Positions 279-6,733 of a stretch of DNA of 6,733 bases are shown piece after piece. The stretch comes from Candidatus Mcinerneyibacteriota bacterium (GTDB lineage: Bacteria; Macinerneyibacteriota; Macinerneyibacteria; Macinerneyibacteriales; DSCS01), in the NCBI GenBank assembly GCA_016937175.1, contig JAFGWL010000047.1, positions 1 through 6,733 of the forward strand, read 5' to 3'. The notes under the pieces are model-generated. The model was not told the DNA's origin. It made no database searches and was given only the letters and a program-made list of their open reading frames with translations. Position numbers and translations under genes: made by a program. Numbering within the stretch: position 1 is the stretch's first letter; every line of letters begins with the position of its first letter.

Positions 279-306
279 TTGACTTTTCACGGGAAGCTCA
301 TACAAT
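279..306 (+). promoter_or_regulatory. Sigma70-type promoter for rlmD, leaderless geometry
   Basis: A -35 box TTGACT (279-284, 5 of 6 consensus) and a -10 box TACAAT (301-306, 5 of 6) are separated by 16 nt. The -10 ends 6 nt before the rlmD ATG at 313, so the expected start of transcription falls on or next to the A of that ATG. No Shine-Dalgarno sequence sits at a usable distance; the nearest purine run (GGGAAG, 291-296) is 16 nt away and lies between the two promoter boxes. The assignment is inferred from sequence only. Confidence 0.65.
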
Positions 307-312
307 CACGGT

Positions 313-1722
313 ATGGAATCGTTGCAGAAGGGGACAATCCTCGATATCACCGTTGAAGATCTCAATACATCCTGTGAAGGGCTGGCCCGTGTCGACGGGA
401 TGGTCCTTTTTGTTCCGGGCCTGCTTCCCGGGGAGAAGGCTTCTGTCAGGATAACAGAGGTCAAAAAAGGGTATGCCCGCGGGGAGTGTCTGAAAATATC
501 CGAAAAAGCGCATTTCCGTGAAACTCCCGCCTGTCCCCATTATGACCTTTGCGGCGGTTGTGATTTTATGCATGTCAAATACGATAAAGCCATGGAGCTC
601 AAAGCCCATATTGTGGCGGAAAACCTCAAGAGGTTGGGCCATGTGAGCTGGGATGAAAAAAAGATCAAGCTGATCCCGGCAGAGAATAAAGTCCATTACC
701 GGAACAAATTTCTCCTCCCTGTCCGGGCTGACAAGGAGGGACGGTTTGTCTGCGGCGCCTTCCGACGGGGAAGCCGAGAAGTGATTCCTATTCCCCACTG
801 TCTGACCCAGGACCTGGCCGCCCGAGACGTGATGAACTACATCGCCGAAAAAGCTCCTCAATACGGAATCAAGCCCTTTAACGAAAAAACCAGGGAGGGT
901 TATCTCAAGGGGATCGGCTATCGCATGGAGAAGAGGAACAAAAAGATGATGCTGATCTTTGTCATCACATCAGAGGATACGGCCCCCTTACAACCTCTTC
1001 TGGACGATCTCGACTTTAAGTTCGGCCATATCGATTCGATTTACGCTAACATCAATCCGGATCCGGACCATACGGGACTCAGCAGAAAGAATATCCATAT
1101 CAGCGGAAAAGAGTTTCTGGACATGTATCTCGGGAAAGCTATGTATAAAGTGGGACCCTCCACCTTTTTCCAGGTCAACAGCAGGCAGGCGGAACTCTTG
1201 TTCCAGCATGTCCTGAGCCTTCTTCCCTTTGAACGGTGGGGAGCGGTCTGGGACCTCTATGCAGGGGTGGGAGCCCTCTCTTTTTTCCTCGCTTCGGAAT
1301 TCAAACGTCTTTATGCCGTGGAGATCGACCCTGATTCGGTGGAAATGGCGGAAAAAAACAAAAACAGGAATTTCGCTGATAATGTCACGGTGATCCGCGG
1401 GGATCTGGAGAGCTTGGATGTCACTCAGCTGGAAAAGCCGGAGGTGGTTGTGACTGACCCGCCGCGCACCGGCCTCTCGGAAAAACTCGTCACTCAGCTG
1501 AATAAGCTCCGGCCCACGAAGATCGTCCTGATCTCCTGTGATTCAGCAACCCTGGCGAGAGACCTGGACCGTTTGTCTGAACAGTATGCCCTCAAGTCCA
1601 TGGCTCTTGCGGACATGTTCCCCATGACCCGCCATATTGAGACAGTGACGCTGCTGCAAAGAAGAGAAGGAGAGGATGATGAGACAAGACCCCTTGATCA
1701 GGAAATCCCTGGATTATCATAA
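313..1722 (+). CDS. rlmD: 23S rRNA (uracil-5-)-methyltransferase, RlmD/RumA family
   Basis: Cytoplasmic enzyme that transfers a methyl group from SAM to C5 of a uridine in 23S rRNA (U1939 in E. coli; some relatives modify U747 or both, so the exact site is not certain). The 469-residue protein has an N-terminal TRAM RNA-binding domain (about 5-60), then Fe-S cluster cysteines C74, C80, C83 and C163 (C-x5-C-x2-C plus a distant fourth). The Rossmann methyltransferase domain shows FFQVN (285-289), the SAM loop [12 protein letters not shown] (314-325), DPPRTGL (382-388), the catalytic nucleophile C409 in [11 protein letters not shown], and the proposed general base E443 in [13 protein letters not shown]. 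The ATG at 313 is the only start: an in-frame TGA lies at 280-282 with no start codon between, and TRAM begins immediately. About 19 residues follow the usual family end and overlap the next gene. Family call is very secure. Confidence 0.95.
1667..1672 (+). promoter_or_regulatory. Shine-Dalgarno site that chooses the malic enzyme start
   Basis: AAGGAG (1667-1672) lies inside the end of rlmD. Two consecutive ATG codons follow at 1676 and 1679. Spacing is 3 nt to the first and 6 nt to the second, so the second ATG (1679) is the better placed start. The site implies translation coupled to, or at least independent of, termination of rlmD, which stops 44 nt further on. Confidence 0.65.
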
Positions 1723-2962
1723 GAGAAGCCCCGCAGGGAAAACAGCCATCCATGTGACCAAACCCTGCTCGACCCAGGAGGAGCTTTCCCTGGCCTATAC
1801 CCCGGGAGTAGCCTATCCCTGCCTGGAGATCGAAAAGAATCCTGCAACAGTTTTTGAATATACCAATAAAGGAAACCTGGTGGGGGTCATCTCCAACGGA
1901 ACAGCGGTCCTGGGGCTGGGCGATATCGGGCCGGCTGCGTCCAAACCGGTCATGGAAGGCAAGGGAGTCCTCTTCAAGCGTTTTGCCGGTATCGATGTCT
2001 TTGATATCGAGATCGCAGAAAAAGATCCGGAGAGGTTTATTGAGATCGTCAAGAGTCTTGAACCCACTTTTGGCGGGATAAACCTGGAGGATATTAAAGC
2101 CCCGGAATGTTTTCTTATAGAAGAGAGGCTGAAAAGAGAGACTTCCATCCCCGTCTTTCATGATGACCAGCACGGGACAGCAGTGATCGTGGGAGCCGGG
2201 CTCCTGAATGCTCTGGAGCTGGCTGGGAAAAAGATCGATGAGATACGCGTCGTCTTTCTGGGAGCAGGGGCTGCCGGTATCGCCTGTGCCCGGTTTATCG
2301 TCTCTCTGGGTGTGCTGAAGGAGAATATTCTTCTTTTTGATAGTCACGGACTGGTGGCTCCCGGGCGTTCTGACCTGGATGAACAGAAACGCTTCTTTGC
2401 GCAAACCGGCCCTGACACCTATGCGGAGGCTCTCCGGGGAGCGGATGTCTTCATCGGGCTTTCCCGGGGAGACATGGTCTCGGCGGATATGGTACGCGCC
2501 ATGGCTGAACGGCCCGTTATCTTTGCCCTGGCCAATCCCTTTCCTGAAATCACTTATGAAGAGGCTTGCGCTGCCCGCAAAGATGTGATCATGGCCACAG
2601 GGCGAAGTGATTATCCCAATCAGATCAATAATGTCCTGGGATTCCCCTATATCTTCAGAGGAGCTTTGGACGTTTCGGCCCGGAGCATCACCGAGGGGAT
2701 GAAGATCGCCGCCGCTGAAGCGCTGGCCCGGCTGGCGCGGGAGAATGTCCCCGCTTATCTTTCTGAGATCTATAAAAGGCCTCTGGAGTTCGGCCCCGAC
2801 TATATCATCCCTGTCCCCTTCGACCGCCGAGTGCTCATCGAAGAGTCGTCAGCTGTCGCCATGGCGGCTGTCAAAGAAGGGATCGCCGGGCGCCCCCTTT
2901 CCAGGGAGGATTATCGTGCTTCTTTACGAAACCTTTCTGAGAAGCTTTCCGGGCAGGAGTAA
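1679..2962 (+). CDS. Malic enzyme (oxaloacetate-decarboxylating malate dehydrogenase), short form
   Basis: Oxidatively decarboxylates L-malate to pyruvate and CO2 using NAD(P)+ and Mg2+/Mn2+, feeding pyruvate and reducing power in the cytoplasm. The 427-residue protein is the MaeB-type malic enzyme core without the C-terminal phosphotransacetylase-like domain of enterobacterial MaeB. Numbering from 1679: catalytic Tyr40 in YTPGVA, Lys95 in [13 protein letters not shown], metal ligands E137/D138 (NLEDIKAP) and D163 (HDDQHGT), the dinucleotide loop GAGAAG (195-200), then NPFPEI and [19 protein letters not shown] near the C-terminal part of the active site. Cofactor preference is not decided by what I can see. 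The first 44 nt overlap rlmD in another frame, so the two are probably cotranscribed, with no obvious functional link. The gene ends 4 nt from the stop of convergent mscS. The call of malic enzyme is very secure. Confidence 0.95.
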
Positions 2963-2966
2963 CGGG

Positions 2967-3809
2967 TCACTTCTTCTGAGAGGCCACAGGGAAGGGTTTG
3001 GTGGTTTCCCCGGTGTAGACCGAGATGTGCGGGAAGGGGATCTCGATGGATTCTTTCCTGAACCGCTCCAGGATCTCTGTCATAATGCTGTTTTTCAAGT
3101 CGGTATAATCGTTCTTTTCAAACCAGAGCCCTAAAAGGAGAGCGACTCCGCTTGTCCCGAACTCTTTGATCAAAAAGTAGGGAGCCGGGTCATCCAGACA
3201 ATAGGGGTTTTTCATGGCGATATCCATAAGGACGCCCCGGACGTGGGAGAGGTCTTCTTTATAAGCTACACTCAATTCGAAGTTCATGCGCCTGAGGGGG
3301 TAGCGTGTGATATTGGTGACATTGGTATTGATGATCGTCGTGTTGGGGATACGGATAAAAAGGTTATCGAATGTCTTCAGCTTGATAGAGAGCAGATCCA
3401 TGGATTCCACGATCCCCAGTTTCCCTTCGACGCTGATGATGTCGCCCAGGGCGAAGGGCTTTTCGGAGACGAGAAAGATACCGCTGATGATGTTGGAGAT
3501 GCTGGTCTGGGCGGCAAATCCGATGGCGATTCCGGCGATCCCCGCTGCGCCGAAGATGGCGCTCATCTTGACGCCGGCCTGCTGAAGGACATAGAAGAGA
3601 AGGAGGATGATACCTGTATAAAAAATTCCTTTGCGTGTCAGCATCTGGACCTGGGGGGAGTATTTTTTCCCCATTCTTTTTCCTATAAAATGAGTTATGA
3701 CCTTAAGAAGAAGTGTCCCCCCGAAGAGGACAGCTAAAGACCTGATAACGACCGGCAGGGCCGGATGAGTCAGGATCGATTTGATGAACTCGGTAAATCC
3801 GGAAAACAT
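2967..3809 (-). CDS. mscS: MscS-family small-conductance mechanosensitive channel
   Basis: Inner-membrane channel that opens under membrane tension to release solutes on hypo-osmotic shock; the family works as a homoheptamer. Its 280 residues are close to E. coli MscS (286). Hydrophobic segments lie at about 17-40 and 60-79. The pore helix TM3 runs about 83-113, Gly/Ala-rich, with FAAQTSISNIISG (98-110). The beta domain follows (KPFALGDIISVEG, 117-129; IPNTTIINTNVTN, 154-166; RYPLRRMNFELSVAY, 169-183), then the alpha/beta vestibule domain to about residue 264. By alignment from memory to E. coli MscS, constriction residues L105 and L109 become I94 and F98, and the hinge G113 becomes T102. It follows the DUF432-like gene after 8 nt, and its Shine-Dalgarno site overlaps that gene's stop codon. 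Family call is secure; conductance and gating behaviour cannot be read. Confidence 0.93.
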   Translation of the reverse strand: MFSGFTEFIKSILTHPALPVVIRSLAVLFGGTLLLKVITHFIGKRMGKKYSPQVQMLTRKGIFYTGIILLLFYVLQQAGVKMSAIFGAAGIAGIAIGFAAQTSISNIISGIFLVSEKPFALGDIISVEGKLGIVESMDLLSIKLKTFDNLFIRIPNTTIINTNVTNITRYPLRRMNFELSVAYKEDLSHVRGVLMDIAMKNPYCLDDPAPYFLIKEFGTSGVALLLGLWFEKNDYTDLKNSIMTEILERFRKESIEIPFPHISVYTGETTKPFPVASQKK

Positions 3810-3811
3810 AT

Positions 3812-3820
3812 ATCACCTCA
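3812..3820 (-). promoter_or_regulatory. Extended Shine-Dalgarno of mscS overlapping the upstream stop codon
   Basis: Read on the minus strand the sequence is TGAGGTGATATATG. GAGGTGAT matches the extended anti-Shine-Dalgarno complement, and the TGA at 3820-3818 is the stop of the preceding gene. A ribosome finishing the DUF432-like protein therefore terminates on the initiation site of mscS, a typical arrangement for translational coupling. It also fixes the mscS start at 3809. Confidence 0.75.
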
Positions 3821-4558
3821 CGACATGACCGTGACTTTTTTCAGGAAAGTGGCAAAGCGGGTGAAATAGTCTTTTGAAGCCTTTCTTCTGGGCCGGGCCA
3901 CGGTCTCAATACCGGAAGAAGCAGGCCTCATGAGTTTGATATCCTGTTTATTATTGGGGCTGATGGTAAATTTTTGTCTGTCGGTGAAGAGATATCCCGC
4001 TTCATTCTTATAAAGGGCTGTGAAGGGGACATAGAGGATAAGCCGCTTGACGTCGAATGAGATCCTGGATTTGTTTTCAATAATGATCTCCATGTAGGCG
4101 GCGTCAGGGAGCAGTGTGCTGTCATCTTTCATGGGCTCCTGATGATGGGTATAGCCCAGGTCACCGTTCTGTCCCACTTCCCCGATCCATGTCTTTGAGA
4201 ACTCTTTGAGGATGATGTCTTTTACAGGAAGGCCGTTGACGGTCAGGGTCGCCCAGAGGGGGACAGGGATGAAGAAGGAGACAGTAGCGCCTGCCAGGAC
4301 ATAAATACTCCGGGCCGGGTCAAGGGAGAGAGGCTTGTCCGGAAGTGAGGGGGAAAGGGCGATCTCCGTACCCGAAACGAGAGCTTTGTCGGGAAGGATG
4401 ATATCGGTCTGGAGTTCTTCTTTTCTCCCCGAATGAAGAAAGATCTGAAGCCTTCCTTCGTGGATAGCTGCAGAGAATTTTTTCCCGTATGCTGTAAAAC
4501 GTAAAGGGCTGTTCTCTTCGGTGATCATCTCTTTGTAAAGGGCCGCCTCTGCTTTCAT
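3818..4558 (-). CDS. DUF432-like protein of unknown function, first gene of the mscS operon
   Basis: A 246-residue protein with no recognised enzymatic motif. I see no signal peptide and no clear transmembrane helix; hydrophobic stretches such as SIYVLAGATVSFFIPVPL (84-101) alternate like beta strands, and the C-terminus is basic (ARPRRKASKD, 221-230), so a mainly beta, cytoplasmic protein is likely. The order of elements (a strand-rich segment with FFIPVPLWATLTVNG; SKTWIGEVGQNGDLGYTHHQ; LPDAAYMEIIIENKSRISFDVKR split at 150-172; then LFTDRQKFTIS) resembles DUF432, a family I know mainly from archaea, but this is from memory. Tight coupling to mscS suggests a role with the channel or in osmotic or envelope stress. 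The start at 4558 fits a leaderless promoter; an alternative is the ATG at codon 11 (4528), preceded by AAAGAG. The gene is real; the function is unknown. Confidence 0.8.
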   Translation of the reverse strand: MKAEAALYKEMITEENSPLRFTAYGKKFSAAIHEGRLQIFLHSGRKEELQTDIILPDKALVSGTEIALSPSLPDKPLSLDPARSIYVLAGATVSFFIPVPLWATLTVNGLPVKDIILKEFSKTWIGEVGQNGDLGYTHHQEPMKDDSTLLPDAAYMEIIIENKSRISFDVKRLILYVPFTALYKNEAGYLFTDRQKFTISPNNKQDIKLMRPASSGIETVARPRRKASKDYFTRFATFLKKVTVMS

Positions 4559-4564
4559 ACTCTA

Positions 4565-4593
4565 ATCATAGGTGAAAAAAGGGAAAAAATCAA
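4565..4593 (-). promoter_or_regulatory. Promoter for the DUF432-like gene and mscS, leaderless geometry
   Basis: On the minus strand a -35 box TTGATT (4593-4588, 4 of 6 consensus) and a -10 box TATGAT (4570-4565, 5 of 6) are separated by the ideal 17 nt. The -10 ends 6 nt before the ATG at 4558, so transcription should start on or beside that codon. No Shine-Dalgarno sequence fits in the remaining 6 nt. The spacer consists largely of two T-runs on this strand (A-runs on the plus strand), which may bend the DNA. Confidence 0.65.
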
Positions 4594-4622
4594 AGGGTAA
4601 TTGAGGGAGGTTTTTTACGGGC

Positions 4623-4650
4623 TTGATGAGGGCTGATAATCTGATATAAT
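4623..4650 (+). promoter_or_regulatory. Promoter for corA and downstream genes, near-leaderless geometry
   Basis: A perfect -10 TATAAT (4645-4650) is preceded after 16 nt by TTGATG (4623-4628, 4 of 6 for -35). The -10 ends 9 nt before the corA ATG at 4660, so the 5' leader would be about 0-4 nt. No GGAGG-like sequence lies in the 20 nt before the ATG. A second, weaker -10-like hexamer GATAAT (4635-4640) sits 10 nt upstream but lacks a good -35. CTGATA is directly repeated at 4633-4638 and 4641-4646. Confidence 0.7.
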
Positions 4651-4659
4651 AAAAAGACC

Positions 4660-5736
4660 ATGCTGAAAGTAAAAAACTTCAAACCGAGATTCTTTGCAAA
4701 AAAAGCAGGCCTTCCCCCGGGGGATATAGACCAGGGAGAACGCGGGTATCAGGAGGAGGAGACCGATCTCTGCCTGATCCGTTATCATGAGGGGGGGTTT
4801 ACGACTGAAAAGGCCGCAGACTTGAACAGGCTTACTCCGGGGGCTGAACAAGAGCGGCTCTGGCTCAGAGTCCGCGGCTTGGGGGATATCCCACTTCTGA
4901 AGAAGGTCTGTGATGCCATCGGGATACATAAACTTCATCTGGAAGATATACTTTCTCCCTACCTTCGCCCGAAACTTGAAAAACTCTCCCGGGGGCTCTT
5001 TTTCGTGGGGACCCACTATGAGATCGAAAAGACAAGCGAACTTTTTTCAGGGAGCAATATCTCCATTTTCTTCAGCGACAGACTTCTGGTCACTTTTGAA
5101 AGCCAGAAAGACTTCATTCTGGATGCGATCGAAGAACGTATTGTGAAAAGAAACGGGGTTGTCCATGAGAAGAGCCTGAATTACCTCTTTTATGCTCTCC
5201 TGGACATTCTCAATGACTCTCACTATGTGGTCCTGGATACCCTGTCTGAGGCCCTGGAGAGCCTGGAGGAGCTGGTCATGAAGGAGCCCGGCCCCGCGAC
5301 TTTGAACCGTCTCTATCATGTCCGCAAGATAGTTTTGGATATCAAAAAGAACATCTGGTCTTTTCGCGAGGTCTCCGCTAAACTTAATATATTCTGGAGC
5401 CGGGAAGAGGAGCCGGACCTCTCTCTCTACCGGGCCGATCTTCATGACCATGTGGCCCAATGCCTGGATATGGTGGAGACCATGCGGGAGATGATCTCAG
5501 GGTTGGTGGAGCTCCATATGTCTGCGGTGAGCAACCGGATGAATGAGGTCATGAAGATCCTGACAATCGCAGGCTCGATCTTCATCCCCCTGACCTTTAT
5601 CGCGGGGGTCTACGGGATGAACTTTGACTTCATGCCGGAATTGAAGTGGCGCTTCGGATATCCGGCGATTTTAATTATCATGTCCCTTCTGGCGGCGGGC
5701 ATGCTGATTTTTTTCAAAAAGAAAAAATGGTTTTAG
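4660..5736 (+). CDS. corA: Magnesium/cobalt transport protein CorA
   Basis: Pentameric inner-membrane channel for Mg2+ (also Co2+/Ni2+) uptake. The 358 residues match Thermotoga maritima CorA (351) along the whole length, from KKAGLPPGD near the N-terminus to the KKKKWF end. A large cytoplasmic alpha/beta and coiled-coil domain occupies about 1-290, TM1 about 298-318, the signature YGMN at 318-321 with FMPEL after it, and TM2 about 333-352. With a +7 offset to the T. maritima protein, D89 is D96, D253 is D260, N288 is N295, L294 is L301 and T305 is T312; the regulatory-site D277 is E284 and the gate-region M302 is I309. The ATG at 4660 is the only plausible start: an in-frame TGA lies at 4642-4644 and no ATG, GTG or TTG codon occurs before the conserved GLPPG. 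It lacks a Shine-Dalgarno site. It is divergent from the DUF432-like/mscS pair. Confidence 0.95.
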   Translation: MLKVKNFKPRFFAKKAGLPPGDIDQGERGYQEEETDLCLIRYHEGGFTTEKAADLNRLTPGAEQERLWLRVRGLGDIPLLKKVCDAIGIHKLHLEDILSPYLRPKLEKLSRGLFFVGTHYEIEKTSELFSGSNISIFFSDRLLVTFESQKDFILDAIEERIVKRNGVVHEKSLNYLFYALLDILNDSHYVVLDTLSEALESLEELVMKEPGPATLNRLYHVRKIVLDIKKNIWSFREVSAKLNIFWSREEEPDLSLYRADLHDHVAQCLDMVETMREMISGLVELHMSAVSNRMNEVMKILTIAGSIFIPLTFIAGVYGMNFDFMPELKWRFGYPAILIIMSLLAAGMLIFFKKKKWF

Positions 5737-5750
5737 TCTTTCCCCTAACA

Positions 5751-5758
5751 AAAGGAGG
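5751..5758 (+). promoter_or_regulatory. Strong Shine-Dalgarno site fixing a GTG start for the nitroreductase
   Basis: AAAGGAGG (5751-5758) is a near-perfect Shine-Dalgarno sequence 7 nt before GTG at 5766, which is in frame with the nitroreductase. In-frame ATG codons upstream (5646, 5727) lie inside corA, lack such a site and would add residues foreign to the family, so the GTG is preferred. Confidence 0.85.
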
Positions 5759-5765
5759 TCATCCT

Positions 5766-6338
5766 GTGATAAGAGATCTTGTCATCAAGAACAGAAGTTA
5801 CAGGCGTTTCGATCAATCCCGAGAGATCGCAGAAGGGACATTAAGGGAACTGGTGGATCTGGCCCGTCTTTCCGCTTCAGGGATGAATGCCCAGCCTCTT
5901 AAGTATATTCTGAGCGCTGATAAGAAAAAAAACGATATCATCTTCCCCACCCTGGCCTGGGCGGCCTATCTCAAAGAGTGGGACGGCCCTCAGGAGGGGG
6001 AGCGCCCTTCAGCCTATATTGTGATGCTCGGAGACACGACAATACGCAAGAATTTCGGGTATGATCCGGGAATCGCTGCCCAAAGCATACTGCTCGGCGC
6101 GGTGGAGAAGGGGATCGGCGGCTGTATGATCGCGTCGGTGAAACGCGAAGTCCTTCAGAACAAACTCCGGATACCCGACTGGTATGAGATTCTCCTGGTC
6201 CTGGCGTTGGGATATCCTGCTGAAACGGTGGTTCTTGACGAAATAGAACATAGCGGAGATATCAAATACTGGCGGGACGAGAAGGATATCCACCATGTCC
6301 CTAAACGGAAACTGGATGATATCATCCTGAAACTGTAA
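5766..6338 (+). CDS. Nitroreductase family FMN-dependent oxidoreductase
   Basis: A 190-residue cytoplasmic flavoprotein of the nitroreductase superfamily, whose members use FMN and NAD(P)H to reduce nitro compounds, quinones, flavins or other acceptors, usually as a dimer. Read from GTG, the N-terminus is MIRDLVIKNRSYRRF, with the phosphate-binding RSYRRF (10-15) typical of the family. ARLSASGMNAQPLKY (33-47) supplies the next flavin-contact segment, DPGIAAQSILLGAVEKGIGGC (split at 100-120) the central helix and Gly-rich turn, and LALGYPAE (146-153) the conserved strand end. The true substrate cannot be read. It starts 29 nt after corA and is followed after 9 nt by bcp, so the three are probably on one transcript, the last two forming a redox or detoxification pair. 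No ferredoxin-type cysteine clusters are present. The family is secure, the physiological role is not. Confidence 0.9.
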   Translation: MIRDLVIKNRSYRRFDQSREIAEGTLRELVDLARLSASGMNAQPLKYILSADKKKNDIIFPTLAWAAYLKEWDGPQEGERPSAYIVMLGDTTIRKNFGYDPGIAAQSILLGAVEKGIGGCMIASVKREVLQNKLRIPDWYEILLVLALGYPAETVVLDEIEHSGDIKYWRDEKDIHHVPKRKLDDIILKL

Positions 6339-6347
6339 GAGGAGATT

Positions 6348-6733
6348 ATGGAAAGGCTGAAAAGAGCTCCCGATTTCTGTCTTCCTGACCAGGCGGGCCG
6401 GAAGCATTGCCTGAAAGAGTATCAGGGGCGATGGGTGGTCCTCTATTTCTATCCCCGGGATATGACGCCGGGTTGCTCCATGGAAGCGGCCCATTTCTCC
6501 TGGGCCAAAGATGATTTTGAAAAGAAAGGGGCCGTTATCCTGGGAGTGAGTCCTGATACCGTAGAAAGCCACGAGAGGTTCTGCCGTGTCAAAGACCTCT
6601 CGGTGACACTGTTAAGTGACCCGGAAAAAAAGGTGATCGATGCCTACGGAGCCTGGGGGATCAAAAAGATGTACGGCAAAGAGACGGAAGGTGTGATCCG
6701 ATCGACCTTTCTTATCAACCCTGGAGGGGAGAT
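6348..6733 (+). CDS. bcp: Thiol peroxidase Bcp/PrxQ (3' end outside window)
   Basis: Peroxiredoxin of the Bcp/PrxQ class, reducing H2O2 and organic hydroperoxides with electrons normally from thioredoxin. The first 128 residues are present. The thioredoxin fold shows APDFCLPDQAG (7-17), the active site YPRDMTPGCSMEAAHF (35-50) with peroxidatic C43, supporting T40 and P41, and R119 in IRSTFLINPGGE. E. coli Bcp has its resolving cysteine five residues after the peroxidatic one; that position here is A48. Instead C79 (ERFCRVKD) lies exactly 36 residues after C43, the spacing I recall for PrxQ enzymes with the resolving cysteine in helix alpha3. An AGAGGAG Shine-Dalgarno site (6338-6344) overlaps the last base of the nitroreductase stop codon and precedes the ATG. 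The family's usual length is about 150 residues, so roughly 20-30 are missing at the window end. Confidence 0.92.
   Translation, partial: MERLKRAPDFCLPDQAGRKHCLKEYQGRWVVLYFYPRDMTPGCSMEAAHFSWAKDDFEKKGAVILGVSPDTVESHERFCRVKDLSVTLLSDPEKKVIDAYGAWGIKKMYGKETEGVIRSTFLINPGGE

Follow-up and report, generated by a model that had tools for sequence, protein, structure and literature searches.

Putative leaderless operon-first genes form a small minority, shared with a sister species, in a Candidatus Mcinerneyibacteriota genome

The window analysed here is an entire contig (C66) of 6,733 bases from a Candidatus Mcinerneyibacteriota assembly of 1.88 Mb (71 contigs, 98.7% complete). Behind the tail of an O-methyltransferase gene it carries rlmD (313..1722, + strand), encoding the 23S rRNA m5U1939 methyltransferase (TIGR00479, 328 bits against a cut-off of 183.55), followed by a malic enzyme gene that overlaps the end of rlmD (1676..2962, + strand; PF00390 and PF03949), an mscS-type mechanosensitive channel gene (2967..3809, − strand; PF00924 and PF21082), a gene for an uncharacterised protein of 246 amino acids (3818..4558, − strand), corA, encoding a Mg2+/Co2+ transporter (4660..5736, + strand; TIGR00383, 249 bits against a cut-off of 200.75), a nitroreductase-family gene that begins on a GTG at 5766 (5766..6338, + strand; PF00881) and a bcp-type peroxiredoxin gene cut by the contig end (6348..6733, + strand; PF00578). 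The 246-aa gene and corA point away from each other across a gap of 101 nt, so that both stand first in a transcription unit; a same-strand gene lies 44 nt before rlmD, which has its own promoter-like site and was therefore also counted as first in its unit. The malic enzyme, mscS, nitroreductase and bcp genes are internal. The name 'DUF432-like', given to the 246-aa protein when the sequence alone was read, was not supported: the protein had no Pfam, NCBIfam or PDB match at relaxed thresholds, and the DUF432 profile (PF04254) matched neither this protein, up to E = 10, nor anything else in the genome. An orthologue of the 246-aa protein is present in the congeneric genome G023 (64% identity), with the same initial methionine and the same divergent arrangement with corA.

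Each of the three operon-first genes is immediately preceded by a predicted sigma70-type promoter. For rlmD (279..306, + strand), this comprises TTGACT (279–284), a 16-nt spacer and TACAAT (301–306), with 6 nt to the ATG at 313; for the 246-aa gene (4565..4593, − strand), TTGATT, a 17-nt spacer and TATGAT, with 6 nt to the ATG at 4558; and for corA (4623..4650, + strand), TTGATG (4623–4628), a 16-nt spacer and TATAAT (4645–4650), with 9 nt to the ATG at 4660. Pairing with the anti-Shine–Dalgarno (anti-SD) tail was negligible before these starts, which thus lack an SD site (rlmD, −2.6; the 246-aa gene, −2.4; corA, −0.9 kcal/mol), and strong before the four following genes (−8.8 to −12.8 kcal/mol). 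The malic enzyme gene has AAGGAG within the end of rlmD (1667..1672, + strand; −8.8 kcal/mol for an ATG at 1676 or −10.8 kcal/mol for one at 1679), mscS has GAGGTGAT (3812..3819, − strand; −11.4 kcal/mol), the nitroreductase gene has AAAGGAGG (5751..5758, + strand; −12.8 kcal/mol) and bcp has AGAGGAG (6338..6344, + strand; −9.1 kcal/mol), which touches the nitroreductase stop codon. In the upstream sequence that was scanned, no promoter-like site before any of these four genes reached a score of 7.5. The anti-SD tail was assumed, as no 16S gene was found in the assembly, and is credible because SD sites are clearly enriched at 4–8 nt before starts in this genome. The sequence-only reading had described exactly this division, with a −10 box 6–9 nt from the ATG and no SD site at the three leading genes and a good SD site at the four that follow, and within the window its description was accurate.

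To place these genes in a genomic context, we surveyed 1.52 Mb (81%) of the genome, covering 1,292 called genes on contigs both with and without matches to the promoter pattern. Our own caller picked starts on coding score alone, which kept upstream motifs from influencing the result. A gene was classed as operon-first if its neighbour was divergent or the same-strand gap was at least 120 nt (358 usable), and as internal if the gap was at most 30 nt (631 genes); genes with gaps of 30–120 nt were excluded, which probably leads to some undercounting of leaderless genes. Promoters were scored with a generic, approximate Escherichia coli sigma70 matrix that was independent of this genome, and a gene was called leaderless if a promoter was found with its −10 box ending 5–9 nt before the start. 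E. coli K-12 served as the sole control, as pooled named loci (from Actinobacteria, Firmicutes, Bacteroidetes and others) were too few and too mixed.

Promoters at this distance were strongly enriched before operon-first genes (32 of 358, 8.9%) relative to internal genes (8 of 631, 1.3%; P = 9 × 10−9), the comparison that the sequence-only reading had proposed, and relative to composition-shuffled upstream sequences (8.3 operon-first genes expected); the same pipeline yielded 2 of 118 operon-first genes in E. coli K-12, where the shuffled level was 2.5. A strict TTGA-N-TANNAT-N5-9-ATG pattern occurred 58 times in the genome, compared with 3 times for the reversed pattern. The distribution of promoter–start gaps among operon-first genes peaked sharply at 6 nt, where 19 genes fell (positions from 15 to 59 nt averaged 4.8 each), was nearly empty at 10–15 nt and rose into a broad hump of leadered genes from 16 nt onward, as expected if transcripts carry either no leader or one long enough to hold an SD site. 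No SD site preceded 31 of the 32 genes called leaderless, and their median anti-SD energy (−2.15) was weaker than that of shuffled sequence (−4.9). An alternative, SD-led start was available in six of the 32, leaving approximately 25 (7% of operon-first genes). The leaderless share would thus be about 7–9% of operon-first genes, or roughly 2–2.5% of all genes (25–32 of 1,292).

The strongest evidence comes from conservation in G023, whose DNA is approximately 72% identical to that of the window's genome. All three window promoters keep the same gap to the ATG there (TTGACT-17-TACAAT-6-ATG for rlmD, with the methionine conserved; TTGATT-16-TATCAT-6-ATG for the 246-aa gene; and TTGAAG-16-TATAAT-9-ATG for corA, with the start conserved). 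Of the 67 pairs of orthologues whose starts matched, nine were called leaderless in both genomes (including the three window genes), none in the window's genome only, one in G023 only and 57 in neither (P = 2 × 10−10). The gap to the ATG was identical in eight of the nine shared pairs, in which the −35 and −10 boxes were 89% and 87% identical, respectively, compared with 49% for the spacers. Such conservation of spacing is not unique to leaderless genes, as promoter distance was also kept within 3 nt in 22 of 24 pairs of leadered genes; the conservation therefore indicates real and stably placed promoters rather than special selection for leaderlessness. A 9-nt gap was found for corA (4623–4662) and for two further genes (C34_9449 and C20_5584), is exactly conserved in the G023 orthologues and suggests a leader of about 2–3 nt.

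These observations bear on the possibility that the −10 boxes match only by chance or have another role, and that the transcripts start at promoters further upstream and carry leaders that are translated without SD pairing. One of the three genes offers something for this view: the 246-aa gene has another promoter-like site 87 nt upstream, with a score of 10.4 bits. Against it, rlmD and corA have no further site at or above threshold in the upstream sequence examined (up to 95 nt), G023 keeps both boxes and the gap to the ATG despite its divergence, and the genome-wide gap distribution peaks sharply at 6 nt. We consider this explanation very unlikely.

Still less probable is that the true starts of the window genes lie downstream, giving ordinary leaders behind misplaced start codons. 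Errors of this type do occur in the genome. At recA (C47:15548-16603, − strand), an upstream ATG that happens to be in frame follows a promoter-like site by 9 nt, and the likely start (MSDQ...) is seven codons further on with an SD site of its own, which is kept in the G023 sequence (AAAGGAGG...ATGTCAGATCAG); the leaderless call for this gene is thus false. The gene C49_7493 likewise has a chance upstream ATG, and its true start, preceded by an SD site, follows within a few codons. For the three window genes, however, the alignments with the G023 proteins begin at residue 1 of either sequence (MKAE for the 246-aa protein and MLKxKN for CorA), and our reading of the sequence found no SD-preceded alternative start close behind any of them. 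The opposite error was seen in two orthologue pairs, on contigs C61 and C55, in which the G023 starts are leaderless and a later start was called in the window's genome. Chance upstream ATGs, as at recA, can therefore yield false leaderless calls in automatic surveys, and SD-based start calling can misplace the starts of leaderless genes in such genomes.

The general rule proposed by the sequence-only reading, in which operon-first genes throughout the organism are leaderless and lack SD sites and internal genes are SD-led, fits all three operon-first and all four internal genes of the window but is refuted genome-wide, and we regard it as having next to no chance of being correct: SD-like sites preceded 57% of operon-first and 63% of internal genes; the 326 operon-first genes not called leaderless matched internal genes in median anti-SD energy (about −9.1 compared with −8.7; P = 0.47); and the best promoter-like site lay at least 18 nt from the start in about half of operon-first genes. 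The genome thus has a minority of leaderless genes, and its other operon-first genes are ordinary; the real division in this genome is between that minority and all other genes, not between operon-first and internal genes. The co-occurrence of three leaderless genes in one small contig, which holds 3 of the 58 strict-pattern matches in 6.7 kb, is in part attributable to luck and to selection by the sequence-only reading.

Together, these results make rlmD, the 246-aa gene and corA very probable members of a small leaderless class among the first genes of operons, as judged from the position of their promoters. In the mechanism that we propose, an ordinary housekeeping promoter of the sigma70 type would sit directly before the ATG; a −10 box ending 6 nt upstream (rlmD and the 246-aa gene) would direct transcription from the A of the ATG itself, and one ending 9 nt upstream (corA) would place the transcript start at most about 3 nt before it. 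The ribosome would then begin on a 5′-terminal AUG without SD pairing, with SD-paired initiation presumably used by the downstream genes of the same transcripts and by most other first genes of the genome. Leaderless operon-first genes were adjacent to one another somewhat more often than expected (six pairs compared with 2.3 expected among the 358 operon-first genes; P = 0.018), in a post hoc comparison that is not firm enough to build on. That the leaderless genes are a small, species-stable and mildly clustered set retained by joint translational regulation rather than by drift is a speculative and, in our estimation, unlikely reading, as is the corresponding suggestion that conditions favouring 70S or 5′-AUG initiation might provide such regulation.

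Leaderless genes have been reported at low percentages across many bacterial phyla (Zheng et al. 2011, PMC3160421); Firmicutes and Spirochaetes have a few percent, Actinobacteria and Deinococcus-Thermus about 20–40% (PMC3160421). Mapping of 5′ ends in Leptospira identified about 440 leaderless cases (PMC5243855). The genes described here resemble the 'TA-led' genes of that multi-phylum survey (PMC3160421), which have TANNNT approximately 12 bp before the start (equivalent to the 6-nt gap used here), lack SD sites and were read as carrying sigma70 −10 boxes; in addition, the −35 box, operon position and conservation in a sister species were checked here. The present lineage is apparently absent from that survey. 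It is poorly sampled more generally, since the relatives available to us were one congener and one genome of the same order, with all others related only at the level of the domain. The suggestion, made when the sequence alone was read, of a less documented lineage sharing the habit of Actinobacteria and Deinococcus-Thermus thus holds for the sparse documentation but not for the habit: the leaderless genes (32 operon-first genes, 8.9% of that class, or 25–32 of the 1,292 called) fall in the low band of Firmicutes and Spirochaetes, below the approximately 20% or more of genes that marks a leaderless-rich lineage. The ratio of strict-pattern promoter–ATG spacings of 5–9 nt to control spacings of 25–29 nt, displaced by 20 nt, was high without being exceptional (58/37), ranking sixth among the 38 genomes tabulated of 60. 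Two genomes from other families had higher ratios (G053, 60/22; G049, 14/3) and possibly contain a larger share of leaderless genes. In the same-order genome (G024, 30% GC), 2 of 74 operon-first genes were called leaderless.

Like the leaderless transcripts of Mycobacterium and Deinococcus (PMC4633059, PMC9031893), those predicted here would arise from a promoter directly before the ATG, but they account for a far smaller fraction of genes (roughly 2–2.5%, compared with about 20–25% to 60%). The arrangement within the window, with proximal genes leaderless and distal genes SD-led, recalls that of Sulfolobus solfataricus (PMC3160421), in which, however, the promoter and ribosome are archaeal and the arrangement is a rule, whereas here it concerns a minority of operon-first genes. 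The leaderless class described here is thus a new occurrence of a known phenomenon, at a level ordinary for bacteria, and leaves the picture of translation initiation unchanged; with it, a sparsely sampled bacterial lineage joins those with a modest class of leaderless genes, and a comparison of two species indicates that leaderless status and the exact spacing from promoter to ATG are retained at about 72% DNA identity.
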